DNA of 64,000 bases from Bradyrhizobium sp. 1. GTDB lineage: Bacteria; Pseudomonadota; Alphaproteobacteria; Rhizobiales; Xanthobacteraceae. Of the stretch, positions 41,006 through 64,000 are shown piece after piece. How positions within the stretch are numbered: the stretch's first letter is position 1; every line of letters starts with the position of its first letter. Below the pieces are notes generated by a model. It made no database searches. It was not told the origin of the DNA and saw only the letters and a list, made by a program, of their open reading frames with translations. Position numbers and translations under genes: made by a program. Where the stretch lies: the NCBI RefSeq assembly GCF_023073315.1, contig NZ_JADPJH010000033.1, positions 480,891 through 544,890 on the forward strand, given 5' to 3'.

Positions 41006-41026
41006 TTATGTCCACCGCTCCGATCG

Positions 41027-44429: not shown

Positions 44430-44453
44430 CTCTGTTCTCCGTAGATCTGGGCG

Positions 44454-46268: not shown

Positions 46269-46282
46269 GACCTGCCGCTGTT

Positions 46283-47814: not shown

Positions 47815-48887
47815 CGGAACCGCTCCGATTTCGTAAAGTTCTTCTGCCGGCGGAATGTCGCCTTTCTGTGCATCGGGAAGTGCGCGAAATAGGCCTTCAC
47901 CTTCTGCCAACGGCCATTGATCCCGGCCGGCTCGAACAGAACGAATGCGACCAGAATTGCGCCAAACAGGCCCGGCTCCAGGCCGGGCTGCTGCGCCAAC
48001 GAATCTGGGAGGGTATCGCGAAACACCGCAATGATTTGTGGAAGCATCGATACGAAAATCGCTCCGAAAATCGCACCGTGGAGCGATCCGAGTCCGCCGA
48101 CGACGACCATCAGAAGCAGCTGGATCGACAGAAGTACACCGAACGCGTCCGGCGCTAAGCTCCCTATCCGATGGGCCAGCAGGGCTCCCGAAAGCCCGGC
48201 GAAGCCGGCCGACAACGCAAATGCCGTCGTCTTCTTCGAAGCTAGGTTGACTCCCATCGATTGCGCGGCAACTTCGCTGTCGCGGATCGACACGAACGCC
48301 CTTCCCGTTGGCGATCGAAGAATATTGCGAGCCAGCAAAAGCGCCCCTACCGCGGACAACAAGCATAGATAGTAGAAGGAGACACCTTCCATTATCGAAT
48401 AATTGAGAATGACCCCAGCAGGCACACTCATGCCGCCGAATCCACCGGTCATGCTCTCCCAATGAACGAACACGTGTTCGACGATGAAGGTAAAAGCGAG
48501 CGTCGCCATCGCAAGGTACAGACCGGACAGCCGTAGCGCCGGATAACCCAAAAGCGCTCCCACAAGGGTCGAGATCACTACCGCCCCGATGATCGACAGT
48601 GGAAGCGGCAAACCGGACGTCAGAAGAACCGCATTTGCGTAGGCCCCAATTCCGACGAACGCCCCATGCCCGATGGAGACTTGCCCGGCAAATCCCGTCA
48701 GCAACATCAGCCCGACGCTCGTGATGCTCAAAATAAGGGCGTACGAGATCTCGCCGAGCCAAAAACTGCCAACGCTGAGCGGCAAGAGAAGGAGAATTAC
48801 GAGCAGGCCGCAGTAGATATTCCGATCAATCCCATCGCGGAAGAGATCGATGTCCTGATTGTAATGTGTTTTGAATATCCTCCGCAT
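47811..48887 (-). CDS. livM: Branched-chain-type ABC permease LivM, set 3
   Basis: A 358-aa permease with [20 protein letters not shown] and [16 protein letters not shown]. It is about 35 residues longer than LivM of sets 1 and 2, with a basic C-terminal tail ([19 protein letters not shown]). One base separates it from livH. Confidence 0.92.
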
Positions 48888-48888
48888 A

Positions 48889-49758
48889 TCAGACCTTCTT
48901 TCGACCTACGCTGCCGAGGAGGCCTTGCGGTCGGACGAAGAGCACGGCCAGCAACGCGACATATGCGGCGATGTCCTTCATGTCGGCGGTCACGTACCAG
49001 CTCGACAACTGCTCAAGTAAGCCGATCAGAACCCCGCCTACCAACGCTCCCGGAACGGAGCCGAATCCGCCAAGAACCGCGGCGGCAAACGCCTTCAGGC
49101 CTAAAAACCCGAGATTGGAGTCAACCAAGGTCACCGGCGCAATCAGCACGCCGGCAATAGCTGCAATGCCGCCCGAGATCGCCCACACCAGTGAAAATAG
49201 AAGCTTTACCGGTACCCCCATGTAGTACGCGGCCAACTGGTTCTGAGAGGCCGCCTGCATGGCGACGCCGACGCGGGTCAACCCGAAGAACATGCCAACG
49301 GCCCCACACAGGAAAACCGCGCCGACCATCATCGACAAAGTCGTACTGGAGACGACAACACCACCGACATTGATCGCACCCGCAAATGGAGTCGGCAGAA
49401 CCAAGGAGGATGTGCCCCAAATCATCGTTCCAACAGCCCGAAGAACGAATCCCAATCCGATCGTCAGCATCACCACCGAAAACTGGGGCTGCCCGATAAT
49501 CCGCCGAAGGATCACGGCGTCGATCAAGAACCCGATGACGGCTACAACAATCATTGTTGCGGCGATCGCCGCCCAATACCCCCACCCCCAAAGCACGATG
49601 AACGAGTAAGCAACAAAGGCGCCGATCATCAGCAACTCGCCTTGCGCGAAGTTTACAACCTCGGTTGCCTTGTAGATGAGCGTGAAGCCCAGCGCGATCA
49701 ACGCATAGACGCATCCAACCGCCACGCCGCTGACGATAACTGAGATCAGGCTGTGCAA
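48889..49758 (-). CDS. livH: Branched-chain-type ABC permease LivH, set 3
   Basis: A 289-aa permease (AVGCVYALIALGFTLIYKAT, FGSVPGALVGGVLIG). It is the first gene of the long leftward operon that continues through ATPases, ligase, SDR, receptor, dehydrogenases, hydratase, thiolase-like protein, DUF35, ligase and MaoC. A perfect operator lies 137 bases upstream. Confidence 0.92.
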   Translation of the reverse strand: MHSLISVIVSGVAVGCVYALIALGFTLIYKATEVVNFAQGELLMIGAFVAYSFIVLWGWGYWAAIAATMIVVAVIGFLIDAVILRRIIGQPQFSVVMLTIGLGFVLRAVGTMIWGTSSLVLPTPFAGAINVGGVVVSSTTLSMMVGAVFLCGAVGMFFGLTRVGVAMQAASQNQLAAYYMGVPVKLLFSLVWAISGGIAAIAGVLIAPVTLVDSNLGFLGLKAFAAAVLGGFGSVPGALVGGVLIGLLEQLSSWYVTADMKDIAAYVALLAVLFVRPQGLLGSVGRKKV

Positions 49759-49908: not shown

Positions 49909-50452
49909 AGTTTATGATCTTACCAAGCAGACCAGCGAGCTACTTGTCAAGAAGGAAGGGAGTTGAGGCAATTCGGCACAGTTGAGCGCGATCTAGTTGA
50001 CTAGTGCAGTCCCCTCGCAGTTCACCCACGAATGACCAGCTTGCCTCGGCGGCGCTAGCCTGCGGCATGCCAGGTTGGAGTGTCGCCAAGCCTATCCAAG
50101 TGAAGCAGGCGAGATAACTACAGCTCTGTTCCGTAGAATCTGGCGTGTTCCGAAGTCCATCCGTGCAGGCCGGCGATATATTGACGTCTCTGCCGAATAT
50201 ATACTAACATCTGTTTGATTTGCCCCGATAGCATCGGTGGTCTCGTGCAGTAGCGACCGAAACGCGTGCGGATAAACAATAGTCGACATCAGGAAGGAAC
50301 GGCTCGAAACGCTGTGCCTATCGCCGGCTTGCGTCCATTGCGGTTGAGCGATTCAAGCGGTCGCAACGCCGCGTCCTCATGCGCCGGATAAGGCGTCCGC
50401 TTCGTCAACATTGTTGAAGTTCTCACTCCCATGGTCTGAGGTAGAACAGCTT
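49909..50452. other. Gene-free divergent promoter region
   Basis: About 540 bases with no credible gene. It contains a shortened operator-like palindrome, AACATCTGTT at 50206-50215, and otherwise nothing I can name. Confidence 0.5.
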
Positions 50453-52012
50453 ATGCTCGACATTCCCCAAAATGCGCTGCCCGATATCTGGTCCCGACAT
50501 GCGCGGCTCGCGCCCAACAAGCCCGCGATCCGATGCGGAAACGAGTGCCTGACGTGGGGAGAATTTGGCAGTCGCATGAACCGCATTGCGAACGCTCTCC
50601 TGAACCTCGGTGTTCAGAAAGGTGATCGTCTGGCATTCGTGATGTCGAACTCGATCGAACATCTCGTGTTGCTATGCGGAGCCATGAAGTCAGGGGCGTG
50701 CGTCGTGCCCGTCAGCACGCTTCTTTCTTCAGAACAGATCGCCGGGCTGATCAATGATTCGGGCAGTTCGCTGCTATTTACAGATAGCAAACATCTGGAC
50801 ACCATTGCAGAAGTAAGGGGTGGATTGAAATCCCTCCGGCCGAACGGAATTTTCGCCGACGCGAACAAGTCTTGGTGCCGATCCATTCGCGAGTTGTGGG
50901 CTGGGGCGCCGGATGCCGAACCGAACGTCGCGCTCGAGCTCGATGACCTGGTGAATATTAGCTACAGCTCCGGCACGACCGGGCTGCCGAAAGGCGTCGC
51001 CTACTCTCATCGAGCCCGTCAGAATATGGGCATGACTTACGCCATTGGCATGAAGTACGGCGCCACGGCACGAACTCTTCTCACCACGCCAATCTACTCC
51101 AATGGCAGCTGGATCACGCTGTGGCCCGCCCTGATGACGGGCGGCGAGATCGTGATCATGCCATCTTTCTCAACGAAGGAGTGCCTCGACCTGATCCAGG
51201 AGCGTAGGATCACCCACGTTTTTATGGTACCCACCCAATACATTCGCTTGCTGGATGAACCTGCGCTGCCACGGACGGACCTCAGCAGTCTCGAAATGTG
51301 TCTAACGGCGGGGTCGACGATGACTGTAGATGTCAAGCGCAAGATAACAGCTGCCTTCGGACTCCGGCTTTATGAGCTATATGGTTTCTCGGAAGGCGGA
51401 GCGACGATTATTTCGCCGGAAGAAATGGTTGATCGGCCGTCATCGGTCGGGCGACCAAATCCAGGCTATGAAGTTCGAATCCTTGGCGACAACGATCGAG
51501 AAGTCGCGCGAGATCAGACTGGAGAGGTCGCGTTCTACGGCGGGTGGATGATGCGCGGATACTACAATAATGACGCGCAGACAGAGTCCATAGTCTGGCG
51601 CGATGAAAAGGGACGATCGTTCATTCGCTCCGGCGACGTGGGCAAGCTCGACGACGAGGGTTATCTCTATATCGTCGGACGCAAGAAGGATATGATCATC
51701 TCGGGCGGGTTCAATATATACCCGGCCGATATCGAAGCGGCGCTGAGCGCGCACCCCGATGTTCTGGAAGCGACCGTCATCGGAGTGTCCCACCCGGTCT
51801 GGGGAGAAACTCCCATTGGCTTCGCTATCGTAAAGCGCGAGAGCAAACTCGAGGTTGGCTCACTTAAAGAATGGGCGAACGAACGCCTGGCAAAAACGCA
51901 GAGGCTCTCGGCAGTCATATTTCTAGACGAGTTTCCGCGAAACGCGCTCGGTAAGGTGGTCAAGCGCGATCTCCAGAGCCATCCATCCCTGCCGGACTTC
52001 AAACGTTCATAG
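50453..52012 (+). CDS. Acyl-CoA synthetase (AMP-forming)
   Basis: A 519-aa ANL ligase with SYSSGTTGLPKGVAY, hinge IVGRKKDMIISGGFNIYPAD and catalytic Lys in NALGKVVKRDLQ. ATG 50453 has GAGGTAGAA upstream. The frame can be extended to a TTG at 50411. It resembles feruloyl/fatty-acyl FadD3-like ligases. It is transcribed rightward on its own, between the long operon and the second cluster, so it could belong to either. Confidence 0.9.
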   Translation: MLDIPQNALPDIWSRHARLAPNKPAIRCGNECLTWGEFGSRMNRIANALLNLGVQKGDRLAFVMSNSIEHLVLLCGAMKSGACVVPVSTLLSSEQIAGLINDSGSSLLFTDSKHLDTIAEVRGGLKSLRPNGIFADANKSWCRSIRELWAGAPDAEPNVALELDDLVNISYSSGTTGLPKGVAYSHRARQNMGMTYAIGMKYGATARTLLTTPIYSNGSWITLWPALMTGGEIVIMPSFSTKECLDLIQERRITHVFMVPTQYIRLLDEPALPRTDLSSLEMCLTAGSTMTVDVKRKITAAFGLRLYELYGFSEGGATIISPEEMVDRPSSVGRPNPGYEVRILGDNDREVARDQTGEVAFYGGWMMRGYYNNDAQTESIVWRDEKGRSFIRSGDVGKLDDEGYLYIVGRKKDMIISGGFNIYPADIEAALSAHPDVLEATVIGVSHPVWGETPIGFAIVKRESKLEVGSLKEWANERLAKTQRLSAVIFLDEFPRNALGKVVKRDLQSHPSLPDFKRS

Positions 52013-52175
52013 AGTCCGAGCTGAACCATGCCGAGGAGTCTTTACTCGTGCAAAGGCTCGCTGCAACGTGCTACGTGGCGCACGCGGCACGTTCTCGGCA
52101 GGCTGGGACGCGTGTCGTGCCCCGCGGCCTGCGACAGCGGCCCGTCTTGGCTCCAGCCGTTCATTCATCCGTAGA

Positions 52176-52490
52176 TCAGTCGCGGGTTTCGGGTAGTGAG
52201 CGGCTCAGGACAAGCCCGAGCCGCTCCATGACCGCCTTGCCGGACCCTTCGATCAGGAGGTCGCAGGATGCCGCCAGCTCCCCGACCGCTTCGATGTCGC
52301 GCGCATTCTTTCGGTCGAGCTCGACAATGCGTCGCCTTCAATTAACGAAATCTCCCTCTTTGCGTTCACCTCGCCCTGGCCGGGCGACTGTCACCCCCTT
52401 TGGCCCCATATCCGACGGCAGCATGGCCGCAAACGGACCGGGACCGATGCCGGCGAATTCCAACGCTCGGATGTTCCTCAGCGGTGCCGT
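52176..52490 (-). pseudogene. CaiB/BaiF CoA-transferase (racemase-type) N-terminal remnant
   Basis: One reverse frame reads APLRNIRALEFAGIGPGPFA, MLPSDMGPKGVTVARPGRGE, a TGA stop, then IVELDRKNARDIEAVGELAA, CDLLIEGSGKAVMERLGL, ending at 52176. This is the first 100 or so residues of an AMACR-like protein. The expected initiator is ACG instead of ATG (52490), there is an internal stop, and the remaining three quarters are gone. It is clearly dead. It sits between the ligase and the CoxG-like gene. Confidence 0.78.
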
Positions 52491-52571
52491 CTGCCAATCG
52501 GCGATAAATATTGCAGGCCGAATGACACTCTCGCCAAAAGCGGTGAAAGCGAGCCGCGATGCGTCCGTCCA

Positions 52572-53012
52572 CTATAAGGTCTGAGCGAACCTGGCGAAGA
52601 AGTCGTCAGCCATCTTCTTGGCCGTCCCGTTGATGAGCCGCTGTCCCAACTGAGCCAGCTTACCCCCGATCTGTGCATCGACCTGGTAGCTCAAAAGAGT
52701 TCCCCCATCGCGTTCGGCGAGGTCTACCTTTGCGCCGCCTTTTGCAAAGCCTGCCACACCGCCTTCGCCTTGTCCGGAGATCCTATAGCCGTGCGGGGGG
52801 TCGAGATCGCTCAGGGAGACTTTGCCTCGGAATCGAGCGGATACAGGGCCAACTTTCATCTTAGCGACGGCGCGGAAGCCCTGATCGTCGGTCTTCTCCA
52901 ATTCCTCGCAACCGGGAATGCACGCCTTCAGGACTTCCGGGTCGTTCAGCTTTTCCCAGACCCGTTCCTTCGGTGCGGCAAGTTGGATCTCGCCTGTCAT
53001 GGTCATCGCCAT
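52572..53012 (-). CDS. CoxG-like SRPBCC family protein
   Basis: A 146-aa SRPBCC protein of the carbon-monoxide-dehydrogenase subunit G family (MTGEIQLAAPKERVWEKLND, CIPGCEEL, VGPVSARFRGKVSL, ending INGTAKKMADDFFARFA). CoxG proteins assist assembly or membrane recruitment of molybdenum hydroxylases. A three-subunit enzyme of that class is encoded 6-11 kb to the right. It follows the AbfD-like gene by 36 bases on the same strand. Confidence 0.88.
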   Translation of the reverse strand: MAMTMTGEIQLAAPKERVWEKLNDPEVLKACIPGCEELEKTDDQGFRAVAKMKVGPVSARFRGKVSLSDLDPPHGYRISGQGEGGVAGFAKGGAKVDLAERDGGTLLSYQVDAQIGGKLAQLGQRLINGTAKKMADDFFARFAQTL

Positions 53013-53048
53013 AACGCTCTCCGGATTTGGTGAGAAGTTGTTTGGATG

Positions 53049-54602
53049 TCAATTGCGGATGGGTGCGAACACCCGAGCCATATACGTGGAGACATCATGG
53101 GAAATACGCTGGCGCGAAGTGTCGCCCACGCCAGCAAGAACCTTCGCCAGTTCCTTCTTGAAGTCGAGTTGCATCGAGCGGGCAATCTGGATCCGCTGCG
53201 CCTGGGGCGATCCCGCGCCATGCATAGATTCGGTCAGATAGCCGACTGCGTTCCGGCCAAGTGTCATGTTCTCTACCAGCCGCAGGATTCGAATCCTGTC
53301 CTCAGTCGAGACCTCGGGGCGCCCCTTCAGATATTTCTCGATCAGGGGCCCCACCGTTTCGTGGCGCAGTTCGCGCTCGGACGGCAGAGTAACCATCAGT
53401 CCACCCGCGATATCCTGCGCAAGCCGGCCGATTTCGTAAGGAAAGCGCGTGACGTGGTGCTTGCATACGTTGGCAAGCATTTCGTCTGGAACGTAGGCCC
53501 CGGATTTCATCGCCATGCCCTGATGGCTCGCCGCGATTCCCGTGCCGTAGATCGTCTCGTTCAGATGGGTCATCTCGACGAGCTTGTCACGAATATGCGA
53601 GGCACGTTCGACGCCGTTGTAGTCGGCGATCGTCGCCGCAGCGCCGATCAGTACATCGCCGACACCTGTCTTGCAGACGTAGCTTCGGCGATGGTAGCAG
53701 GTGAATCGTTCGACTAGCGTAGACGCGAATTCGAACTCGCCGTCGAGAAAGACGTGCTCGGTTGGAATGAACACATCCTCGAAGATGATCATCGCTTCCT
53801 GGCCGGAGAACTGTGCGTTGCCGGCATCGACGTCCCCGCCCTCCGCACTACGACTGTCGCAGGATTGCCTCCCGTAGATGTAAGTGATGCCCTCGGCGTC
53901 CACGGGAATGGCGCCGACGATCGCATAGTCCTTGTCGGCGGCCTCCAACCGCATTGTCGGCATGATGATCAGCCAGTGCGAATTCAGGCAACCCGTTTGA
54001 TGGGCCTTGGCGCCGCTGACATAGACGCCCTCGGCCGTACGCCGCGTGACGTGAACGAACAGGTCTGGATCTGCCTGCTGAGACGGGGAGCGGCTCCGGT
54101 CTCCCTTCACGTCCGTCATGGCTCCGCCGACGACGAAATTCGCGCTCTGCATCCGCGCGAGAAAGGCCGTGAAGCGAGCGTGATAGCCGGTGCCGTACTT
54201 GCCATCCAGATCGTAGGTTATGGAGTGCAGCGAGTTGAGCGCGTCCATGCCGACACATCGTTGGAAGCAGGTGCCCGTCAGTTGGCCCAGGCGGCGCTGC
54301 ATCTTGTTCTGCATCACAAGATCGCGCTGGCTCTTGGAGATGTGAAGAAACCGGTTAATCCGTTCGCCGGTGGAGGGAGAGACCTCGGACGCCAATTCCG
54401 GATCTTCGTTCGCGAGATCGTAGGTCTGCGCGACCGCGTTGATCGAGGGCCGTATGATCGGATGATCGACGGGCTCTGCGACAGGGTCGCCCATCAGGTA
54501 GACCTTCAGTCTACGCCCCCTCAGGCTTTCGATATATTGTGCCCCGGAGCTAATTTTCATTGGGGACCGTGCCGTATCCAGGGCGACGAGTTCCTGATCC
54601 AT
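53049..54602 (-). CDS. 4-Hydroxybutyryl-CoA dehydratase (AbfD)-like flavoprotein
   Basis: A 517-aa member of the HpaB/AbfD flavoprotein fold. It carries the [4Fe-4S] ligands that mark dehydratases rather than hydroxylases: Cys112 and Cys116 (TCFQRCVGMDA), His304 and Cys310 (CYHRRSYVCKTGVGD). The catalytic Glu269 (GQEAMIIFEDVF), Tyr308 and Glu of TESMHGAGSPQAQ are also present. AbfD of Clostridium aminobutyricum has Cys99, Cys103, His292, Cys299, so the His-Cys spacing here is one shorter. The reaction would be 4-hydroxyacyl-CoA to 2-enoyl-CoA. The start has GGAGGT six bases upstream, so the frame extension to 54632 is not used. Confidence 0.8.
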   Translation of the reverse strand: MDQELVALDTARSPMKISSGAQYIESLRGRRLKVYLMGDPVAEPVDHPIIRPSINAVAQTYDLANEDPELASEVSPSTGERINRFLHISKSQRDLVMQNKMQRRLGQLTGTCFQRCVGMDALNSLHSITYDLDGKYGTGYHARFTAFLARMQSANFVVGGAMTDVKGDRSRSPSQQADPDLFVHVTRRTAEGVYVSGAKAHQTGCLNSHWLIIMPTMRLEAADKDYAIVGAIPVDAEGITYIYGRQSCDSRSAEGGDVDAGNAQFSGQEAMIIFEDVFIPTEHVFLDGEFEFASTLVERFTCYHRRSYVCKTGVGDVLIGAAATIADYNGVERASHIRDKLVEMTHLNETIYGTGIAASHQGMAMKSGAYVPDEMLANVCKHHVTRFPYEIGRLAQDIAGGLMVTLPSERELRHETVGPLIEKYLKGRPEVSTEDRIRILRLVENMTLGRNAVGYLTESMHGAGSPQAQRIQIARSMQLDFKKELAKVLAGVGDTSRQRISHDVSTYMARVFAPIRN

Positions 54603-54665
54603 CTCGATACCTCCGTTGGAGCGGCCCGTCATGCTTGCGCGTACGGGCCGCGATAAAGGTCCGCG

Positions 54666-55880
54666 TCAACCCTTCTTGACCAGCGGACAGGCACTGTCTT
54701 TCAGCGGGCGAAACGCCTCGTCGCCGGGGATCACTTCACGTAGCTTGTAGAAGTCCCATTCGCCCTTCGACTCCCACGGCTTCTTGACTTCGTACACGTA
54801 CATGTCGTGCACCATCCGACCGTCTTCGCGAATACGACCGTTCTTGGCAAAGAAGTCATTGATAGGTATTTCGCGCATCTTCTTCATCACTGCTTGCGCC
54901 TCGTCGGTACCGGCCGCTTCGACCGCCCGGAGGTAGTGCATGGTCGACGAATAGTCGCCGGCATCGCCCATGTGAGGCATCACTTTCATCTTTTCGAAGA
55001 ACCTCTTCGACCAGGCGCGCGTCTCGTCATCACGGTCCCAGTAGAAGGCATTGGTCAACACCAAGCCTTGTCCGACCGAAAGACCGAGAGCCTTGATGTC
55101 CGTCTCCCAGACCAGAAGGCCGGCCAGCGTCTGCTTTGGTTGAATTCCGAACTCCTGCGCCGATTTGATCGAGTTGACCAGCACATTGCCGGACCCGGCC
55201 AACGCGACCACCTGGGCTTTCGAGGACTGGGCCTGCAAAAGGAAGGAGGATTGATCGAATGAGTCAGGTGGATATCTGGTCGATCCGACGACTTCGCCAC
55301 CCATCGCCTTGACCACAGCCGAAGTGTCGGCTTCGAGAGCATGTCCGAAGGCGTAGTCCGCAGTTAGGAAGTACCAGGACTTTTTGCCTTCTTTCGCTAA
55401 CGCGGCTCCGGTTCCACGTGCGAGCGCATAAGTGTCGTAGGCATAGTGAACACTGTTCGGCGTGCACGCGTCGCCCGTAAGACGGGACGAGCCGGAACCA
55501 TTGATGATCGCTATCCGGTTCTTGTCCTTCGCAAGCCCGGAGACCGTGAGCGCGATCGACGAATTGATGAGATTGGCGATCATGTCGACTTTCTCAACGT
55601 CGAACCATTTACGCGCCAGCGCTGAAGCGGTGTCGGGCTTGTTTTGGTGATCGGCGACCACGACCTCGATCGGCCTCCCGAGGACCTTGCCGCCGAAATC
55701 GTCGACGGCCATCTTGATCGCAGTGACCGACCCTGGGCCGGATTCGTGCGAGAATTGTCCGGACATATCGGTCAAGACGCCGATCTTCACGACATCGTCC
55801 GACACTCCCTGCGCGCGAGCACCGGTGGCGATCATCAATGCCGCCGACGCGACCACCAAGCTTCCGATTTTCCGCCTCAT
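54666..55880 (-). CDS. ABC transporter substrate-binding protein (orphan)
   Basis: A 404-aa periplasmic receptor with signal peptide (IGSLVVASAALMIATGARA) and VVKIGVLTDMSGQFSHESG, of the Bradyrhizobium-rich Peripla_BP_6 subtype. ATG 55880 has GGGGAG upstream. No permease or ATPase gene lies nearby in this cluster, so it must borrow a Liv-type membrane complex. It is first in the leftward group receptor, AbfD-like, CoxG-like, and divergent from the HxlR regulator. Confidence 0.9.
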   Translation of the reverse strand: MRRKIGSLVVASAALMIATGARAQGVSDDVVKIGVLTDMSGQFSHESGPGSVTAIKMAVDDFGGKVLGRPIEVVVADHQNKPDTASALARKWFDVEKVDMIANLINSSIALTVSGLAKDKNRIAIINGSGSSRLTGDACTPNSVHYAYDTYALARGTGAALAKEGKKSWYFLTADYAFGHALEADTSAVVKAMGGEVVGSTRYPPDSFDQSSFLLQAQSSKAQVVALAGSGNVLVNSIKSAQEFGIQPKQTLAGLLVWETDIKALGLSVGQGLVLTNAFYWDRDDETRAWSKRFFEKMKVMPHMGDAGDYSSTMHYLRAVEAAGTDEAQAVMKKMREIPINDFFAKNGRIREDGRMVHDMYVYEVKKPWESKGEWDFYKLREVIPGDEAFRPLKDSACPLVKKG

Positions 55881-55932
55881 GTTCGTCTCCCCAGACGCTG
55901 GAATTGCAGTCAAATGCTGATTTTTATTACTA

Positions 55933-55968
55933 GCATAACTAGACTTTCTATACATGCATAACTAGACT
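55933..55968. promoter_or_regulatory. Tandem 13-bp direct repeats GCATAACTAGACT
   Basis: GCATAACTAGACT occurs at 55933-55945 and again at 55956-55968, starts 23 bases apart, in the AT-rich divergent promoter between the receptor and the double-HxlR gene. Two copies spaced about two helical turns suit a regulator with two DNA-binding domains. Confidence 0.6.
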
Positions 55969-56062
55969 GATATTTTCTGTGAGTCAATGACAGCATGTGC
56001 TAAATGTGACCAGCTTTCGAAGGCCTTCCGCAAGACGGCCGCCCCCGACTGGACCGTCCGCA

Positions 56063-57103
56063 ATGCCCGCCGCCGCCAAGATCTTCCCTCCGAAAACCAA
56101 AACCAGCGCGAAGCCTCCCGCGGCATCGAGCGGCGGAAAGGCGGTCAAGACCGAACGCAATTGCTCGGTCGCGCGTACGCTCGATATCGTCTCGGACGCT
56201 TGGGCCTTCCTCATCATCCGCGAAGCCTTCTTCGGCACACAGACCTTCGAGGCCTTCCGCTCGGCGCTCGGGATACCGCGGGCAACCCTGACCGACAGAT
56301 TGAGGAAGCTCACGCAGCTTGCGATATTCCGTCAAGTCGCGACCCGATCGTCTCAACGCAAGGAATATCGTCTGACCAAGATGGGCTTCGACCTTTACCC
56401 GAGCTTCATCGCGTTGATGCAGTTCGGCGACCGCTGGCTCTCCAACGGAAAGCCGCCGCCGCTCACGCTGGTGCATACACTTTGCGGCTGCGACAGCCAT
56501 CCGATCGTCAGCTGCTCGCGATGCGGAAAAAGCGTCGGCGCGCGCGACGCCGAATACCGAGATGGTCCCGGCGCAGGGAGAAGCGCCGCCAAAGAAGGTC
56601 GTAACACGCGGCGGGCGTCCGACAACAACCGGTTCCTGACGGGGCGACCGAGCTCGGTCTCCCGAGCGCTCGAGATCATCGGCGACAAATGGAGCTTCAT
56701 GGTCGTCCGTGAAGGATTTTTCGGCAACCGCCGCTACGACAAGATCCTCAACGAACTCGCGATCGCGCCGAATATCCTCACGGATCGGCTGAATCGTCTG
56801 GTCGGCAGCGGAGTGTTCCGGCGCAGGCAATACCAGAGCTCGCCCGAGCGGTTCGAATACCTGCTCACCGACATGGGTCTGGAGCTCTACGGTCCTTTCA
56901 TCGCCATGCTGCGATGGGGGGATCGTTGGCTTTCGAAGGGGAAGCCGCCGCTTATACTCACTCACATCAAGTGCGGCCAGGACTTCGAGCCCGTCGTCGA
57001 CTGCAACCGGTGCAACAGCCCGATCACCGCCGCCGACATGCGGTATCGTCTCGCCTACGACCCCAAATCCTTCGGGGCGCTCGGCCCGCGATCCGTTGAG
57101 TGA
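56063..57103 (+). CDS. Tandem HxlR-type transcriptional regulator
   Basis: A 346-aa protein made of two HxlR winged-helix domains in series. Repeat 1 is CSVARTLDIVSDAWAFLIIR, and repeat 2 is SSVSRALEIIGDKWSFMVVR. Each is followed by a Cys-rich tail (CGCDSHPIVSCSRCGK and CGQDFEPVVDCNRCN), suggesting a small metal-binding ribbon per repeat. HxlR proteins normally act as homodimers of about 110-150 aa, so this chain is a covalent dimer. ATG 56063 is preferred, and GTG 55997 is possible. It is divergent from the receptor/AbfD-like operon, with tandem repeats between, and likely controls the second cluster. Confidence 0.85.
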   Translation: MPAAAKIFPPKTKTSAKPPAASSGGKAVKTERNCSVARTLDIVSDAWAFLIIREAFFGTQTFEAFRSALGIPRATLTDRLRKLTQLAIFRQVATRSSQRKEYRLTKMGFDLYPSFIALMQFGDRWLSNGKPPPLTLVHTLCGCDSHPIVSCSRCGKSVGARDAEYRDGPGAGRSAAKEGRNTRRASDNNRFLTGRPSSVSRALEIIGDKWSFMVVREGFFGNRRYDKILNELAIAPNILTDRLNRLVGSGVFRRRQYQSSPERFEYLLTDMGLELYGPFIAMLRWGDRWLSKGKPPLILTHIKCGQDFEPVVDCNRCNSPITAADMRYRLAYDPKSFGALGPRSVE

Positions 57104-57118
57104 CCGCGCGGGCACCTC

Positions 57119-58663
57119 TCAGGCCTGATGTCCGAGCGCTTCGACGAGCTTGAACCGCATGATTTTGCCGGATCCCGTGCGCGGAATCTCGTCGACGAGA
57201 TGCGTAGCTTCCGGGATTTTGTATGCGGAAAGATGCGACCTGCAATGGTCCAGAAGCGCGGCAATATCGAGGGCGCCGTCCTTCGCGACCACGAAGAGGC
57301 ACGGTACTTCGCCGAGGGTCGCGTGCTTGAGACTCACAACAGCGCAGTCTTTGACTTGCGGATACTTAACGACGACTTCCTCGATCTCGGCTGGCGCAAT
57401 GTTCTGACCGCCGCGGATGATGAGCTCCTTGATGCGGCCCGTGATCGTCAGGTAGCCCGAGGGATCGGATTTCGCGAGATCGCCCGTATGATACCAACCC
57501 TTGCGCAGTGCCGACGCCGTTTCCGCAGGCTTATTGTGGTAACCGTGCATGAGGTTCGGGCCGCGGACGATCAGTTCGCCCTCCTCGCCGATCGGGACGT
57601 CCTCCAGCGAGGACGGATCGACGATACGGACCGCGAGTCCCGGCACCGGGAGCCCGCAAGATCCCATCGGCCTGCCGCCGCGCAGCCAGTTCATGGTCAC
57701 CATCGTTGACGTTTCGGTGATCCCGTATCCGTCGAGGAGTCGCGTCTTGAAACGATCCTCGAACGCCTTGTTCAGCGTCGCCGGCATGATGGCGCCTGCC
57801 GAGATGCAAAGGCGGACGGTCCCAAGCTGCTCGACACCGGCCTCCTGCGCGCGCAGCAAGAGATAGTGAAACATCGTGGGCACGCCCGGCATAACCGAAT
57901 ATTTGCCGGTTTGTAGCAGATCAATCGCTTGCTGCGGCGAGAACCGCTCCATGATGTGCTCGCTGGCGCCAACCGCAAGGACGCCCAGTACCGATAGGTT
58001 GAGACCGTAGGAATGGAAAAGTGGAAGCGGCGAGAGGATGACGTCTTCGCTCGTCAATTCGGCGATTGGTGCCCAGCATGCTGCCGAGATCCAAAGCATG
58101 CCGCGGATCGACAGCAACACGCCTTTCGCCCGTCCCGTAGTACCTGAAGTGTAGATGATGAACGAGGACCGATCGATGTCGTCCGGATCGAGCGCCGTCG
58201 CGCCGGAGGTCTCTGCCAGCTTGTCCAACGATAATCCGGTCGCTTCGCCCCCCTCGCCGGCGAAAATGACCCTTGGAGAGATGGAAGCCTCAAGGCTGAT
58301 CCTCCCCAGGAGCTCCCTTCGTGCGCACGTGGTGAAGACGACGCCGCAGTCGGCGTCGGCAAGACGGTAACTGACCTCGCCCTCGGCGGCGTCGAAGCTG
58401 ATCGGCACCACGATCGCGCCCGCGCGCAGCGCGCCGAAACAGGCTTCGATCCAATCAACCCCGTTCGGCAGATATATCGCAAGCCTATCACCTTCTTTCA
58501 GGCCGGCATCGGTCAGGTTCGCCGCGATCGACGCGGTGCGATCGGCGAGCTGCGCATAGGTGACTGATCGGGCCGCATCCCAATACGCCACCTGATCCGG
58601 TCGATTCTTCGCATGACGCTCGAGAAGCGCCGCTATCGGCGCGATCAGATCAACGTGCAGCAT
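57119..58663 (-). CDS. Acyl-CoA synthetase (AMP-forming)
   Basis: A 514-aa ANL ligase with IYTSGTTGRAKGVLL, hinge ITGRIKELIIRGGQNIAPAE and catalytic Lys in GSGKIMRFKLVE. It lies 12 bases after the SDR gene and is the last gene of the molybdenum-hydroxylase operon. I infer that it activates the acid (possibly a 4-hydroxy acid) that the AbfD-like enzyme dehydrates. Confidence 0.9.
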   Translation of the reverse strand: MLHVDLIAPIAALLERHAKNRPDQVAYWDAARSVTYAQLADRTASIAANLTDAGLKEGDRLAIYLPNGVDWIEACFGALRAGAIVVPISFDAAEGEVSYRLADADCGVVFTTCARRELLGRISLEASISPRVIFAGEGGEATGLSLDKLAETSGATALDPDDIDRSSFIIYTSGTTGRAKGVLLSIRGMLWISAACWAPIAELTSEDVILSPLPLFHSYGLNLSVLGVLAVGASEHIMERFSPQQAIDLLQTGKYSVMPGVPTMFHYLLLRAQEAGVEQLGTVRLCISAGAIMPATLNKAFEDRFKTRLLDGYGITETSTMVTMNWLRGGRPMGSCGLPVPGLAVRIVDPSSLEDVPIGEEGELIVRGPNLMHGYHNKPAETASALRKGWYHTGDLAKSDPSGYLTITGRIKELIIRGGQNIAPAEIEEVVVKYPQVKDCAVVSLKHATLGEVPCLFVVAKDGALDIAALLDHCRSHLSAYKIPEATHLVDEIPRTGSGKIMRFKLVEALGHQA

Positions 58664-58675
58664 CTCCCCCTCCCA

Positions 58676-59425
58676 TCAAACCATCGAATATCCGCCGTTT
58701 ACGCTGATCACCTGGCCGGTGATCCAGCTGCCGGCTTCAGAGGCGAGCAACGCGACCAAGGGAGCGACGTCCGACGGCAGACCCAGCCGTCGGATGGCGT
58801 AGGCCTTTACCAGCTTGTCGCGATTGGCATCCACCCAGGTCTTGTCGTGCGCGGTTTCGATCAGGCCGAGCGAAATCGAATTCGCGGTGACGCCCGAACG
58901 GCCCCACTCGCGCGCGAGCGACTTCATGAGGGCGATGGTGCCGGCGCGCGCGGCAGCGGCGAGCGCGAGACCGGACTCACCGACCCGCGAGGAGTCACCC
59001 ATGATCGAAATGATTCGACCGTGGCCCGAGACCTCCAATAGCGGCCCTGCGCTGTGGGAACAGTTGAGAGCGCCGTACAGGCAGGTGTCGATCTGCTTCT
59101 TCCATTCCTCCGGCGTGCTTTCGCTGAACTTCTTTCGGAACACTAGACCAGCGTTATTGACGAGAATATCGAGTCCGCCGAAATCGGTCTTGATGTCCGC
59201 GACCATCTTCTTGACTACGTCTGCGTTCGCGATATCGGCCTGGTAGGCTTTTGCCTTGCCAGCAGCCTTCTGTATCTCTGCGACGACGCCTTCGGCCTCG
59301 GCCTTCGAACTGTGATAGTTGACCGCGACCGCCGCGCCGCGCTCCGCCAGCATCCTGCAGATCGCGGCGCCGACGTCGCGGCCGCCTCCCGTCACCAGCG
59401 CAGTACGTCCTCTGAGATCGGTCAT
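58676..59425 (-). CDS. SDR-fold protein lacking the catalytic Tyr-Lys pair
   Basis: A 249-aa SDR fold with cofactor motif TGGGRDVG and NNAG, and closing WITGQVISVNGGYSMV. Where active members have YxxxK before AGTIALMKSLA, this protein reads LALAAAARAGT, so Tyr is Ala and Lys is Arg. The catalytic Ser region reads IISIMGDSSRVG. It may be a non-oxidoreductase or a structural partner. The ATG at 59425 overlaps the molybdenum-subunit stop (ATGA). The frame extension to 59845 is antisense-like noise. Confidence 0.85.
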   Translation of the reverse strand: MTDLRGRTALVTGGGRDVGAAICRMLAERGAAVAVNYHSSKAEAEGVVAEIQKAAGKAKAYQADIANADVVKKMVADIKTDFGGLDILVNNAGLVFRKKFSESTPEEWKKQIDTCLYGALNCSHSAGPLLEVSGHGRIISIMGDSSRVGESGLALAAAARAGTIALMKSLAREWGRSGVTANSISLGLIETAHDKTWVDANRDKLVKAYAIRRLGLPSDVAPLVALLASEAGSWITGQVISVNGGYSMV

Positions 59426-61818
59426 GATTTTTCCTTTGCTTTGAGCTTCGCGTTCTGAATGAGCCTGAAGATGCGTTCCGGCGTCATCGGAAGGATCGAG
59501 ACGTCGATGTCGAAGGGCGATAGCGCGTCGGCGATGGCGTTGGCGATCGCCGCCGGTGCTCCGATGGTGCCGCCTTCGCCCATGCCACGAAATCCGCCGG
59601 CCACCGCTGATTCGCTTTCCACATGGACGACATCCATCAACGGCACTTCGGGTGCGGATGGAATCACGTAGTCGACGAGGCTGGCGCTGAGGAGTTGACC
59701 GTCGTCGTCGTAGATCAGTTCCTCGAAGAGTGCCGCCCCGATGCCTTGCGCCACGCCACCATGCACCTGGCCGTCGACGATCATGGGGTTGATGATACGG
59801 CCGCAGTCCTCGGCAACAACGAACTTGTGGATCTTCACGAAACACGTTGCGGGATCGATCTCGACTGCGGCGATATGTGTCGCCGCCGCCGTAGTTCCGT
59901 TGATCGGATCGTAAGTATAGGTCGCGGTCAATTCTTCCCGGGCGTCGACCGGCAGTGTCTTCATGTCTGAATAAACGGCCTTGGCGATCTGCTTGAAAGT
60001 CACCGATCTGTCGGTACCGAGTACGGCTACCTTTCCGTCAGTCACCTCGAGGTCTTCCGTGCTGGCTTCGAGGAGATGCGATGCGACCCGCCGAAGCTTC
60101 GCCTGCAGTATGGCGGATGCGTGCTTCGCAGCGCCACCGCCAAGCACCGCGCTGCGGCTCGCGTAGGTACCCGTGGACATCGGCACCTCGTCGCTGTCGC
60201 CCTGAACGACGCGGATGTCCTCGAAGCGTGCACCGAGATCGTCGGCGATGATCTGCCCCAAGGTCGTCTCAAGCCCTTGACCGTGGGAGGCGACGCCGAA
60301 CGCCGCTGTAATGGCGCCCGTGGAATCTATCGTGATCTTCGCGGTTTCCGAGCCAGTGTTGATCGGCATACCGGGCGCTACCGCTATCCGCGACCCGATG
60401 CCGGTCAATTCCGCGTAGGAGGCGATACCGATCCCGAATAGCCGCCCGCTTTCACGGGCGTGGGCTTGGTGCTTGCGAAGCTGCACATAGCCCGCCGCTT
60501 CGGCGGCGGCATCGAGGCATTCGATGAACCCGGTCTTGTCCCAGATTATCCCGGAAGCGATGCGGTACGGAAATTCTTCAGCCCGCACCAAGTTGCGGCG
60601 TCTGATCTCGAGCGGATCGATGCCGAGCGCCTTCGCGCCCATATCCATCAATCGTTCGCAGACGAAGGTCGAAACGGGTCGACCGACGCCTCGATAAGGG
60701 CCGGTTGGTGGCTTGCACGTCGCGACTCCACGAACCGCACCGCGATAGGACTGTATCTTGTAGGGGCCAGGCAGGAAGCTGACGACCTGAACCGGCTCCA
60801 GCCCACATGTCCATGGATAGATCGAAAAGGCGCCTACGTCCCCGATCACGTCGGCCTGGAGCGTCGTGGCCGTGCCGTTCGCGTCGAACCCCATTTCGGC
60901 GTCGACGATCTCCGAAAAGGCCTGGCTGCTGCTGCTGATGTCCTCAAGCCGGTCGGCCGTCCATTTGATCGATCGGCGCAGCCTGCGCGCGGCAATGCAG
61001 ATCAGGAGTTCTTCCGGGTACAGGGAGCCCTTGGAGCCGAAGCTGCCGCCGACGTCCGGCGCGACCACCCGCAGGCGGTGTCCTGGAAGGGAAAGCGATT
61101 CCGAAATTGCGTCGCGTATGATACCGGGAATGTTGGACGACGTGTAAAGAGTGAGTGCGTCCCTTCGCTTTTCGTATTCCGCGGTATAGCTGCGCGGCTC
61201 CATCGCAAGCGGCGCCTTGCGCGTCATTTCGAAGCGTCCGCCGACTCTCACCGCCGCGGCCGCCATGTCCTTTCCGACGTCCCCCTTCTTGAATTCGCGG
61301 GCAATCAGAACGTTGGTCCCCGCCTCTTCGTGAAGCAGCGGCGCGTCTTCGGCAACCGCTAGTTCAGCGCGCGCGATCGGCTTCAGTGGCTCGTAGTCTA
61401 CTTCGATCAATTCGAGCGCGTCCTCCGCGAGGTAGCGGGAGGTGGCGACAATGGCGGCAATGGCCTCCCCGACATAGCGTACCTTCCCGGAGGCGAGAGG
61501 AAGAATGGGGGTCGCGTAGTAATTCGCCATCCGCGAAAACGGAATGACCGGCTTGAAGTCATCGACGATCTCTTCCGCGGTGAGCACCGCGACGACACCT
61601 GCAGCTTCCGAGGCGGCCGTCGTATCAATCCGGGTGATCTTGGCGTGCGGCTGTCCGCTGCGCAGAAATGCGAGATGCAGCGGCCGGTCTGGCATTCGGT
61701 CGGCGGTGTATTCGCCGCTACCGGTGAGCAGGCGCGGATCCTCGGTACGCCGGATCGGTGCACCGACGTTCTTCGGCCGCAGCACGTCGGATCGGTTCGC
61801 CGGGCGATCGCTATTCAT
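59422..61818 (-). CDS. Xanthine dehydrogenase-family molybdopterin-binding subunit (CoxL-like, form II type)
   Basis: A 798-aa large subunit of a molybdenum hydroxylase. N-terminal domain VGAPIRRTEDPRLLTGSGEY; Mo-site blocks DVGGSFGSKGSLYPEE, GPYRGVGRPVSTFVCERL, SHGQGLETTLGQI and the C-terminal RGMGEGGTIGAPAAIANAI containing the proton-abstracting Glu. It lacks the CO-specific loop VAYRCSFR, so it is not a true CO dehydrogenase. It hydroxylates a carbon of an aromatic or heterocyclic substrate or an aldehyde. ATG 61818 (GGAG six bases upstream) overlaps the hydrolase stop, and 61824 is also possible. Confidence 0.9.
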   Translation of the reverse strand: MNSDRPANRSDVLRPKNVGAPIRRTEDPRLLTGSGEYTADRMPDRPLHLAFLRSGQPHAKITRIDTTAASEAAGVVAVLTAEEIVDDFKPVIPFSRMANYYATPILPLASGKVRYVGEAIAAIVATSRYLAEDALELIEVDYEPLKPIARAELAVAEDAPLLHEEAGTNVLIAREFKKGDVGKDMAAAAVRVGGRFEMTRKAPLAMEPRSYTAEYEKRRDALTLYTSSNIPGIIRDAISESLSLPGHRLRVVAPDVGGSFGSKGSLYPEELLICIAARRLRRSIKWTADRLEDISSSSQAFSEIVDAEMGFDANGTATTLQADVIGDVGAFSIYPWTCGLEPVQVVSFLPGPYKIQSYRGAVRGVATCKPPTGPYRGVGRPVSTFVCERLMDMGAKALGIDPLEIRRRNLVRAEEFPYRIASGIIWDKTGFIECLDAAAEAAGYVQLRKHQAHARESGRLFGIGIASYAELTGIGSRIAVAPGMPINTGSETAKITIDSTGAITAAFGVASHGQGLETTLGQIIADDLGARFEDIRVVQGDSDEVPMSTGTYASRSAVLGGGAAKHASAILQAKLRRVASHLLEASTEDLEVTDGKVAVLGTDRSVTFKQIAKAVYSDMKTLPVDAREELTATYTYDPINGTTAAATHIAAVEIDPATCFVKIHKFVVAEDCGRIINPMIVDGQVHGGVAQGIGAALFEELIYDDDGQLLSASLVDYVIPSAPEVPLMDVVHVESESAVAGGFRGMGEGGTIGAPAAIANAIADALSPFDIDVSILPMTPERIFRLIQNAKLKAKEKS

Positions 61819-62572
61819 AGCCATCTCCACCCTTGCGGAGTCTCTGCCATTGCTCGTCGTCGTGCCCGCATATGACGGTGGCGCCTGACTTCTCGATTCG
61901 GCGGACCTCAGCGAAGGTCTTCAACTGCTGCTCGACGTTCCAGGTATTGCGGGGCGCGGAATCCGCGTCGAGGTTCTGGCGCAGACTGACGGCATCGGAT
62001 GCGAGGAGAAATTGGCCGTCCCGATCGAGACTGACGAGCGCGCCCATCGTCCCCGGCGTGTGACCAGGCAGCGGGACCAGCATCACGCGGCCGTCGCCGA
62101 ACAGATCCTTTTCCCCGTTCACCGGCTCGATCGGATTTCCGCAATCCCAATCGGCCTTGAAGTATCCCGCGGTATCTGCGCCGGGCGCTTTGGCCGCTTC
62201 GATTTCCTTTGCGTGGGCCAAGATGGTGGCGTTGCGGAAGAACTGATTGCAGCCGCAATGGTCCGGATGGAAGTGCGAATTCACGACGATATCGACGTCG
62301 TCGGGCCCGAGCCCCGTGCACGCCAGATTCGGAAGCAACGTCTCTCCCGCGCCCATCATCGGCTTCATGACCTTTGCCAGCGGACCCCAGCGCCCTTCCG
62401 CGTCTTCGGCCACGGACGGATGACAGCCGGTGTCGAACAGCACATTTCCCTGCTTGTGGCGCATCAGCGCGCTGCTGACCGGAAGGTCGATGGTCTCCCC
62501 TCGCTCGGCCCCGGGGACGTAGATGCTCTTCTTCATGCGGAGCCGGCCGGCGGCAATAAAATTCAGCTTCAT
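61811..62572 (-). CDS. Metallo-beta-lactamase-fold hydrolase (lactonase-like)
   Basis: A 253-aa dinuclear-zinc hydrolase: NSHFHPDHCGCNQ gives the HxHxDH motif, LPGHTPGTMG the next His, ASDAV the bridging Asp and CGHDDEQW the last His. It has the look of the N-acyl-homoserine-lactonase group. ATG 62572 overlaps the small-subunit stop (ATGA), and the frame to 62647 is spurious. It is interposed between the iron-sulfur and molybdenum subunits, an unusual place, so its reaction should belong to the same pathway: lactone or thioester hydrolysis. Confidence 0.87.
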   Translation of the reverse strand: MKLNFIAAGRLRMKKSIYVPGAERGETIDLPVSSALMRHKQGNVLFDTGCHPSVAEDAEGRWGPLAKVMKPMMGAGETLLPNLACTGLGPDDVDIVVNSHFHPDHCGCNQFFRNATILAHAKEIEAAKAPGADTAGYFKADWDCGNPIEPVNGEKDLFGDGRVMLVPLPGHTPGTMGALVSLDRDGQFLLASDAVSLRQNLDADSAPRNTWNVEQQLKTFAEVRRIEKSGATVICGHDDEQWQRLRKGGDGYE

Positions 62573-63048
62573 GACTTTCTCTCCGAGCGCAACGCAGCGG
62601 CGCTGCGGATCGCGGCTACGATGTTCTGGTAGCCGGTGCAGCGACAAAGGTTGCCCGACAGCCCCTCCCGGATGTCTTCATCGGTCGCCAGTGGGTACTT
62701 CCGCAGCATGTCCTCGCCCGTCATCAACATGCCTGGCGTGCAGTAGCCGCACTGGAGCCCGTGATGCTCACGAAATTGCGATTGGAGCACGTTGAGATCT
62801 TCGGGCGAGCCCAATCCTTCGACGGTCAATATATCGGCGCCATCGACTTGGACGGCCAGCATGAGACAGGACCGGACGCTATCGCCGTTGACGAGGATCG
62901 TGCAGGCGCCGCACACTCCGTGCTCGCATCCGACGTGCGTACCCGTCAGTCCGAGCCGGTCGCGTAGGAGATCGGAAAGAAGCATGCGTGGCTCGACATC
63001 CGGAACGTCGTGACGCTGTCCATTGACTTTCAACGATATGGCGATCAT
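62569..63048 (-). CDS. [2Fe-2S] small subunit of molybdenum hydroxylase (CoxS-like)
   Basis: A 159-aa electron-transfer subunit with the plant-type cluster CEHGVCGACTILVNG plus SCLML, and the proximal cluster CGYCTPGM and CRCTGYQNIV. All eight Cys are present. ATGA overlaps join it to the FAD subunit upstream and the hydrolase downstream. Confidence 0.94.
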   Translation of the reverse strand: MIAISLKVNGQRHDVPDVEPRMLLSDLLRDRLGLTGTHVGCEHGVCGACTILVNGDSVRSCLMLAVQVDGADILTVEGLGSPEDLNVLQSQFREHHGLQCGYCTPGMLMTGEDMLRKYPLATDEDIREGLSGNLCRCTGYQNIVAAIRSAAALRSERKS

Positions 63049-63914
63049 GCCGTTCTCTCCCCCGCTTCGAGGGCCGTGCGCAATGCGCGCTTGGACAACT
63101 GCTTGAGGAGATGCGTGCGATACTCTCCCGAGGCATGGAGATCGTCGTTCGGCGAGACCTTGGAGGCGACGATCTCGGAGAAGCGTTCGGGCAGCTGCGC
63201 GTCCAGCGGCAACGCGACGAGTTCCTGCTCCGCCTCCCGGAGACGCAGCGGAGTGTCCGCCACTCCCATGACCGCAATACGCGCGCCCTCCAATTTAGTT
63301 TCTGTTCGGCGGACGGACAGCGCGATGCTCGCGAGTGCGAAATCGCCGAAACGTCGCGCGACCTCCTCGAACGCCCAACCATCGTGGTCCAAGACCGGAA
63401 ATTCGACCTCGACGACGATCTCGTCCGGCTCTAGGCAGTTCGTCAGGGCGTCGACGAAGAAGTCCTCTGCAGCAATCGTCCGGAGCCCTTTTGGGCCACG
63501 AACGGCGATGCTGGCGTCGTAGAACATCGCCAACATAGGCAATTCGGCGGCAGGGTCCGCGTGGGACAGGCTGCCGCCGATCGTGCCGCGGTTACGGATT
63601 GCCAGATGCGCAACATGGCGCATCGCTGCCGACATGACCGGCAGCCTCGCAGCGACGAGCGGGGAATGTTCGAGATCACGATGTCGCGTCAACGCTCCGA
63701 TCGCGATCCGGTCCTCCCGGTCCTCGATGTAGGAAAGGCCCTCGATGCGGTTGAGGTCGACCAGAATTGACGGCCGAGCCATTCTGAAGTTCAGTAGCGG
63801 AAGCAGGCTCTGACCACCGGCGAGCACCTTTCCTTCCCCGTTCGAGGCGACCAGCGCCTCGATCGCGAGGTCCACCGTTGACGGCGCTATGTAGTCAAAC
63901 TTGGCCGGCTTCAT
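63045..63914 (-). CDS. FAD-binding medium subunit of molybdenum hydroxylase (CoxM-like)
   Basis: A 289-aa subunit with FAD motifs AGGQSLLPLLNFRMARP and TIGGSLSHADPAAELP. ATG 63914 has GGAGAAGG upstream. The frame is open to 63953, overlapping the preceding hydratase. With the small and large subunits it completes a standard three-part molybdenum hydroxylase, in the order medium, small, hydrolase, large. Confidence 0.93.
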   Translation of the reverse strand: MKPAKFDYIAPSTVDLAIEALVASNGEGKVLAGGQSLLPLLNFRMARPSILVDLNRIEGLSYIEDREDRIAIGALTRHRDLEHSPLVAARLPVMSAAMRHVAHLAIRNRGTIGGSLSHADPAAELPMLAMFYDASIAVRGPKGLRTIAAEDFFVDALTNCLEPDEIVVEVEFPVLDHDGWAFEEVARRFGDFALASIALSVRRTETKLEGARIAVMGVADTPLRLREAEQELVALPLDAQLPERFSEIVASKVSPNDDLHASGEYRTHLLKQLSKRALRTALEAGERTA

Positions 63915-63949
63915 GGGCCTTCTCCAAATCCCGATTTTTCTCCATCCGG

Positions 63950-64000
63950 TCATTCGCCGCGAAAGCGCGGCGACCTCTTCTGCGCGAATGCATCACGACC
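63950..64000 (-). CDS. Enoyl-CoA hydratase, C-terminal end only (window edge)
   Basis: The last 16 codons before a TGA at 63950 read GRDAFAQKRSPRFRGE, the typical C-terminus of a crotonase-family hydratase. The rest lies beyond the window. The stop is 35 bases before the FAD-subunit start, so it is in the same operon. It would hydrate the enoyl-CoA released by the AbfD-like enzyme. Confidence 0.72.
   Translation of the reverse strand, partial: GRDAFAQKRSPRFRGE

Follow-up and report, generated by a model that had tools for sequence, protein, structure and literature searches.

The window analysed here is a stretch of 64,000 nucleotides from Bradyrhizobium sp. 1 (NCBI RefSeq assembly GCF_023073315.1, contig NZ_JADPJH010000033.1, positions 480,891 to 544,890), and its end carries a catabolic-looking gene cluster for a molybdenum hydroxylase, a lactonase, a CoA ligase and a substrate-binding protein, among others. 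Within this cluster a minus-strand open reading frame at positions 53049-54602 runs from an ATG at 54602 to a stop codon at 53049-53051 and encodes a protein of 517 residues, here called the dehydratase. We think it likely that the gene encodes an oxygen-tolerant 4-hydroxybutyryl-CoA dehydratase (4HBD) of the thaumarchaeal type, an enzyme with flavin adenine dinucleotide (FAD), a [4Fe-4S] cluster and vinylacetyl-CoA isomerase activity, and that it serves the surrounding genes by way of 4-hydroxybutyryl-CoA. The original prediction, made from the letters of the DNA, had noted the Glu and Tyr residues of AbfD in this reading frame, had given Cys112, Cys116, His304 and Cys310 as candidate cluster ligands and had left the strand unstated; all lie exactly where it placed them.

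In an alignment with AbfD, the 4HBD of Clostridium aminobutyricum (PDB 1u8v), these four residues pair with C99, C103, H292 and C299. AbfD residues Q101, T190, E257, Y296, K300 and E455 have catalytic roles, and the dehydratase keeps all six, as Q114, T203, E269, Y308, K311 and E458. In chemistry of the AbfD type an electron and a hydrogen pass from the CoA ester to the flavin. The cluster, its histidine and the Tyr and Glu residues assist in the loss of the unactivated beta proton and of the 4-hydroxyl, with crotonyl-CoA as the product. The residues surrounding the ligands are invariant across 44 aligned rows.

The step from the histidine to the last cysteine is six residues in the dehydratase (HRRSYVCK), as had been noticed, and seven in AbfD (HRQSYGGCK). 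The original prediction treated this shift as peculiar to the gene and asked whether Cys310 reaches the cluster. The short gap instead marks a whole clade, to which the solved structure 6vjr belongs: the motif HRxSY[VI]CK, with its gap of six, is found in both proteins, and in the alignment the dehydratase does not match the motif of the long-gap AbfD subgroup, HRQ[SNG]Y[GA]GCK, with its gap of seven. A scan of genome contigs found at least 576 stretches encoding relatives, and the 80 best loci by score were retained, so that the presence of HRRSYVCK in all 80 is a count within the near clade. They come from Bradyrhizobium, other Pseudomonadota, Bacteroidota, Chloroflexota, Acidobacteriota, Planctomycetota and Nitrososphaeria. 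Because these 80 relatives and 6vjr carry the same string, the short gap is neither chance nor a sequencing slip, and a shift unique to this gene was ruled out.

Searched with phmmer against solved structures, the dehydratase scored 793 bits with 6vjr (named 'Vinylacetyl-CoA Delta-isomerase'), 585 with AbfD and 135 with the best HpaB. Among the structures with which its predicted fold was compared, a list outside which further matches are possible, 6vjr ranked first (Z 44.3 over 444 residues, root-mean-square deviation 2.6), followed by 1u8v (41.1) and the HpaB entries (at most 31.8). The Pfam names point elsewhere, to a two-component flavin monooxygenase of the HpaB family that hydroxylates a phenol: the HpaB domains PF11794 and PF03241 match strongly, the overall fold is held in common, and the adjoining hydroxylase could act on an aromatic ring. 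The protein nevertheless falls far below the NCBIfam equivalog cut-offs for HpaB-1 and HpaB-2 (154.9 against 480.2 and 93.8 against 885.2), the aligned HpaB 2yyk, at about 25% identity, is without the cluster Cys and His, and a scan limited to genes of the cluster recognised no flavin reductase. With the tree described below, the cut-offs and the ligands missing from HpaB led us to reject this identity, which we regard as highly improbable. The original prediction had likewise favoured an AbfD-like protein, and had expected automatic annotation to use the HpaB name. A copy on a Bradyrhizobium elkanii plasmid is annotated '4-hydroxyphenylacetate 3-hydroxylase N-terminal domain-containing protein'.

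Wider sampling covered 100 relatives, 385 Alphaproteobacteria, 151 genomes of the phylum of a locus from ammonia-oxidising archaea (AOA) and 151 of the phylum of a Chloroflexi locus. With 16 loci excluded beforehand (duplicates, pieces of the decayed copy described below, the distant paralogues L144 and L145, and plain stretches), 174 rows were aligned, in which some Bradyrhizobium genomes are present twice: 126 have the short gap (class A), 13 the long gap (class B: AbfD, Fusobacteria, rows from the AOA phylum and others), 26 are without two of the ligands (class C), and of nine others two, L182 and L184, keep the ligands with a long gap. In a tree of 80 rows hand-picked from the 174, class A forms one side of a branch with 100/100 support, adjoining the AbfD group and far from HpaB, and 62 rows (50 short-gap and 12 long-gap) are united at 100/100 apart from class C, HpaB, L182 and L184, with a long-branch warning for HpaB, class C and other outliers. 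The phylogeny with AbfD and HpaB that had been proposed as a check therefore groups the dehydratase with the 4HBDs, outside HpaB. A further eleven positions hold one residue in at least 97% of the short-gap rows and retain it in no more than 10% of the long-gap ones; at one of these, Q256, AbfD itself has the short-gap residue. As class B, class C (counted from His to Ala) and L182/L184 all have the longer spacing, the simplest reading is that the gap was shortened once, on the class A branch.

The class C paralogues (L017-L024 and L116-L133, from relatives in the genus, order and class) stand at 33-38% identity. All 26 rows keep C99 and H292, with Tyr replacing C103, Ala replacing C299 and Cys at the place of Tyr296 (CAxRY, HHRxxCI[GA]AR). 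L182 and L184, both from genome G720, are distant (34-37%) and keep Cys, Cys, His and Cys (HRHSYTGCK and HRHSYSGCK); they are possibly further cluster-bearing members of the family. A phage gene was considered and set aside; the lone match among viral contigs, L105, is of the long-gap type.

AbfD is known as oxygen sensitive, and an enzyme of its type in an aerobe had been called unexpected. Its presence is real, but it is much less surprising than was thought. The short-gap clade includes PDB 6VJR, 70% identical to the dehydratase and titled 'Oxygen tolerant Archeal 4hydroxybutyrylCoA dehydratase (4HBD) from N. maritimus', so such a gene in an aerobe is largely to be expected. From title and organism, 6VJR would be Nmar_0207, and an excerpt of PMC11494057 speaks of the thaumarchaeal 4HBD as oxygen tolerant. 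By this kinship the dehydratase would tolerate oxygen as well. It is 66-73% identical to the archaeal rows, which are nested within the bacterial short-gap rows in both trees that we made. They form one clade with 99/99 support in one tree and 64/62 in the other, and an approximately unbiased (AU) test did not reject bacterial monophyly (p 0.062). Because of this p value and the differing support, we keep a bacterial origin of the archaeal enzyme for the most speculative reading, given below. The AOA loci have recurring neighbour genes of their own, as judged by gene-group comparison rather than family search.

A 4HBD has been reported in Bradyrhizobiaceae before. An excerpt of PMC4195664 describes a candidate 34% identical to that of N. 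gargensis and 80-82% identical to Bradyrhizobiaceae proteins, states that all 13 enzymes of the 3-hydroxypropionate/4-hydroxybutyrate cycle were identified in some members of the family, and proposes that these fix carbon by the cycle. The dehydratase could be part of such a cycle, as it has its clade in common with the archaeal cycle enzyme. Against this, its gene lies among genes for uptake, a ligase and a lactonase in a cluster of catabolic appearance, and it occurs in 10 of the 60 genus genomes searched and also on a conjugative plasmid. The reported 34% fits the ligand-poor paralogues (two archaeal rows share 33-35% identity with L018, of class C) and not the 66-73% of the short-gap clade. 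On identity alone the candidate in that excerpt thus appears to be of the class C type, and class C may have been counted as 4HBD. A role in carbon fixation seems to us very improbable for this gene.

Table 1. The dehydratase, its predicted cluster ligands and the neighbouring genes (positions in the window)
Feature	Position	Strand	Basis
4-hydroxybutyryl-CoA dehydratase (predicted; short-gap, thaumarchaeal-type 4HBD), 517 aa	53049..54602	-	homology, tree, fold match
C112 codon (= AbfD C99), cluster ligand by homology	54267..54269	-	counted from ATG at 54602
C116 codon (= AbfD C103), cluster ligand by homology	54255..54257	-	alignment
H304 codon (= AbfD H292), cluster ligand by homology	53691..53693	-	alignment
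C310 codon (= AbfD C299), cluster ligand by homology; one residue closer to His than in AbfD	53673..53675	-	alignment
CoxG-like protein (PF06240), just downstream of dehydratase	52572..53012	-	
Periplasmic substrate-binding protein (PF13458), just upstream of dehydratase	54666..55955	-	
HxlR-type regulator with two HxlR stretches, opposite strand	55997..57103	+	
AMP-forming acyl-CoA ligase	57119..58663	-	
Short-chain dehydrogenase/reductase (SDR)-fold protein, catalytic Tyr and Lys replaced by Ala and Arg	58676..59425	-	
Molybdenum hydroxylase large subunit; nearest solved sequence quinoline 2-oxidoreductase	59422..61818	-	
Metallo-beta-lactamase-fold lactonase; best NCBIfam match AttM/BlcC family, below cut-off	61811..62572	-	
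Molybdenum hydroxylase [2Fe-2S] subunit	62569..63048	-	
Molybdenum hydroxylase FAD subunit	63045..63953	-	
Enoyl-CoA hydratase gene, 3' end; runs beyond window (whole gene L146 1341-2120)	63950..64000	-	

The lactonase gene of the cluster (Table 1) stands between the molybdenum hydroxylase genes. The hydroxylase large subunit matches quinoline 2-oxidoreductase at 540 bits, too distantly for its substrate to be named. As its catalytic Tyr and Lys are lost, the SDR-fold protein is probably not an ordinary dehydrogenase. In L032 the Tyr is replaced by Val, and three rhizobial copies have a matching AAAAR stretch. The set of ligase, molybdenum hydroxylase and crotonase may resemble the furoate (hmf) genes. 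An Rfam scan of positions 50000-64000 gave no matches at gathering scores. About 13 kb before the window lies a second, decayed dehydratase copy with internal stops and a broken frame (G000:C38:467103-468241; L147 5514-6742). A second catabolic block at 35502-49758 comprises genes for a MaoC protein, CoA ligases, a thiolase-like protein, an enoyl-CoA hydratase, two acyl-CoA dehydrogenases, a binding protein, an SDR and a LivFGMH-type transporter, named by eye from the sequence except that the ligase at 44454-46388 was checked by family scan.

The molybdenum hydroxylase had been noted beside the dehydratase in the original prediction, and this neighbourhood is conserved in many Bradyrhizobium loci. 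Of the 11 loci compared from Bradyrhizobium or near it, seven (L025-L029, part of L031, and L136) keep the gene order of the cluster to the limits of the stretch, with CoxG not found in L025 and L027. L136, on a B. elkanii plasmid typed as conjugative, has the cluster together with the dehydratase, and L032 has a rearranged cluster whose molybdenum hydroxylase, lactonase, SDR and ligase proteins are 51-67% identical. Among the 100 relatives, counting the window's own genome and taking the molybdenum large subunit at E of at most 1e-200, this subunit and the class A dehydratase occur in 12 genomes each: eight have both, four only the first and four only the second, with G028, which holds only a 40-residue piece at 83% identity, scored as without dehydratase. 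The co-occurrence has a Fisher p of about 1e-6, which is optimistic because the genomes are kin. In G032, one of the eight, the two genes lie on different contigs.

The class A locus of that genome (L197, G032:C23) pairs the dehydratase with genes for an enoyl-CoA hydratase, a lactonase (60%) and a substrate-binding protein (51%); molybdenum hydroxylase genes were not found in its 17.7 kb and lie on the other contig. The 40-residue pieces in G028 and G057 (C150:8089-8208 and C190:976-1095, respectively) correspond to residues 449-488 at 80-83% identity and are perhaps the remains of lost copies. Farther afield, two Emticicia loci and one Runella locus have what reads as an enoyl-CoA hydratase gene one or two genes upstream, and a family of about 400 residues, resembling HMG-CoA reductase by eye, is a repeated neighbour of the dehydratase in loci of Bacteroidota and Acidobacteriota and in one of Lysobacterales (L057, L062, L069, L071, L086 and L104).

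An indication of the substrate comes from plasmids on which one gene set replaces another. Sixteen plasmid records have the molybdenum large subunit at 60-80% identity, and the 15 listed, from Rhizobium, Sinorhizobium, Agrobacterium and Aminobacter, have it at 60-62%. All 15 carry an iron alcohol dehydrogenase of at least 75% identity, at a distance of 2.4-11.3 kb from the molybdenum gene, and none is among the five plasmid records in which a dehydratase reaches 60%. The three of these plasmids that were inspected have the lactonase, SDR, enoyl-CoA hydratase, ligase, binding protein, ATP-binding cassette (ABC) transporter and CoxG, together with a thioesterase, the iron alcohol dehydrogenase and a succinate-semialdehyde dehydrogenase (SSADH); the dehydratase was not found in the stretch. 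Conversely, a dehydratase of at least 80% identity was found in four plasmid records, all of B. elkanii, and these are the four that have the molybdenum large subunit at 86%; an alcohol dehydrogenase of the plasmid type was not found in 41.5 kb of one of them. The plasmid records are mutually related and not independent. The Aminobacter SSADH passes the NCBIfam model TIGR01780 (722 against 646). That the alcohol dehydrogenase, thioesterase and SSADH stand in the dehydratase's stead suggests that the two sets handle one C4 unit, and points to 4-hydroxybutyryl-CoA as the dehydratase's substrate.

A more compact arrangement is found in L206, from G092, where an iron alcohol dehydrogenase of the related type (57%) and an SSADH come immediately before a class A dehydratase (66-67%); this SSADH, too, passes TIGR01780 (680 against 646). 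Positions 4124-10794 of this locus hold an ABC transporter, named by eye, and these three genes in one direction with short gaps; by its gene content this further genome of the order has a small self-contained module for 4-hydroxybutyrate. In L030, likewise, a 51% relative of the alcohol dehydrogenase is about 4 kb from the dehydratase. About 3 kb separate a Cetobacterium copy of the AbfD type from a gene annotated as 4-hydroxybutyrate dehydrogenase. The AttM/BlcC-like lactonase fits the C4 reading as well, because the blcABC genes degrade gamma-butyrolactone through gamma-hydroxybutyrate and succinic semialdehyde to succinate, according to an excerpt of PMC3907764.

Several observations weigh against a thaumarchaeal-type 4HBD that serves this cluster through 4-hydroxybutyryl-CoA. 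The lactonase misses the NCBIfam AttM cut-off (138.7 against 390), and the alcohol dehydrogenase misses that for 4-hydroxybutyrate dehydrogenase (232 against 500); of the Aminobacter and L206 enzymes neither reaches it. The alcohol dehydrogenase set predicted near clusters without a dehydratase was found in none of four genomes (G031, G015, G079 and G094), in 20 kb fetched and among matches of at least 30% identity and 40% cover; G079 has a 60% alcohol dehydrogenase on another contig. A search for the thioesterase in 10 genomes, run without a positive control, gave no matches. The exchange is not clean in L032, where a 48% relative of the thioesterase adjoins the dehydratase, and L030, L033 and L038 have the dehydratase without the cluster. 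Outside Rhizobiales none of the 80 loci compared shares the molybdenum or lactonase gene groups, in a crude comparison that recovered the dehydratase itself in 70 of the 80, many loci being short. Finally, the AlphaFold2 model used for the fold match is middling (mean pLDDT 76, with residues 448-476 below 50).

If the dehydratase does act on 4-hydroxybutyryl-CoA, the cluster may work as follows. The substrate-binding protein would take up a small cyclic compound, and the molybdenum hydroxylase, lactonase, SDR-like protein, CoA ligase and crotonase-family enzyme would together convert the ring to 4-hydroxybutyryl-CoA. The dehydratase would turn this into crotonyl-CoA, which would enter beta-oxidation. 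On the Rhizobium, Agrobacterium, Sinorhizobium and Aminobacter plasmids a matching front end would deliver the same C4 unit to the iron alcohol dehydrogenase and, on those inspected, the thioesterase and SSADH, giving succinate. The same machinery might instead act on a related 4-hydroxyacyl-CoA, substituted or longer, derived from a ring compound. The cluster does have a full set of ring-modifying enzymes, and its dehydratase differs in 30% of its sequence from that of N. maritimus, both of which fit such a substrate. The SSADH-family enzyme of the plasmid set and the alcohol dehydrogenase and SSADH beside the L206 relative speak for a plain C4 unit, as does the invariance around the ligands, and we consider a different acyl-CoA rather improbable.

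The dehydratase protein itself is of an already known kind. Its setting, with a molybdenum hydroxylase, AttM-like lactonase, SDR, CoA ligase and enoyl-CoA hydratase, looks new: neither the Bradyrhizobium cluster nor its exchange with an oxidative branch was found in a search of the open-licence literature. Genes of the clade can receive a phenol-hydroxylase name, as the B. elkanii plasmid shows, so a radical dehydratase that tolerates oxygen may be overlooked in aerobes. A count of the residues from His to Cys, six in this clade, is a simple way to tell it apart on sequence from the AbfD group and from the ligand-poor paralogues, which may have been taken for carbon-fixation genes. As a dehydratase seems to have been exchanged for an oxidative branch, the role of 4-hydroxybutyrate can be probed directly by genetics, in a soil bacterium that is harmless. 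Oxygen-tolerant 4HBDs from bacteria would also serve well in synthetic carbon fixation. The most far-reaching reading, which we put forward as speculation and think unlikely as a whole, combines three proposals. The cluster would form an undescribed plasmid-borne aerobic pathway from a ring through 4-hydroxybutyryl-CoA to crotonyl-CoA, with an oxygen-tolerant radical dehydratase in the slot of the thioesterase, alcohol dehydrogenase and SSADH; the loop, shortened once, would contribute to oxygen tolerance; and the AOA would have obtained their enzyme from such bacteria.

Among known systems, the HpaB 4-hydroxyphenylacetate 3-hydroxylases resemble the dehydratase in Pfam domains and fold and differ in that the aligned member is without the cluster ligands. 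AbfD and its long-gap kin share all ligands and catalytic residues (57% identity for AbfD) and differ by one residue more between Tyr and Cys (YGGCK). The nearest counterpart is the Nitrosopumilus maritimus 4HBD, which has the same short gap, belongs to the same clade and is the best match in both sequence and fold; it is an archaeal carbon-fixation enzyme, whereas the gene described here lies in a bacterial, catabolic-looking cluster. At the level of the pathway the closest parallel is Agrobacterium blcABC (attKLM), as far as the excerpt describes it. Both systems have an AttM-like lactonase, and the rhizobial sister cluster adds the alcohol dehydrogenase and SSADH. The Bradyrhizobium cluster differs in having a molybdenum hydroxylase, SDR, CoA ligase and crotonase in front, and it would probably yield crotonyl-CoA in place of succinate.

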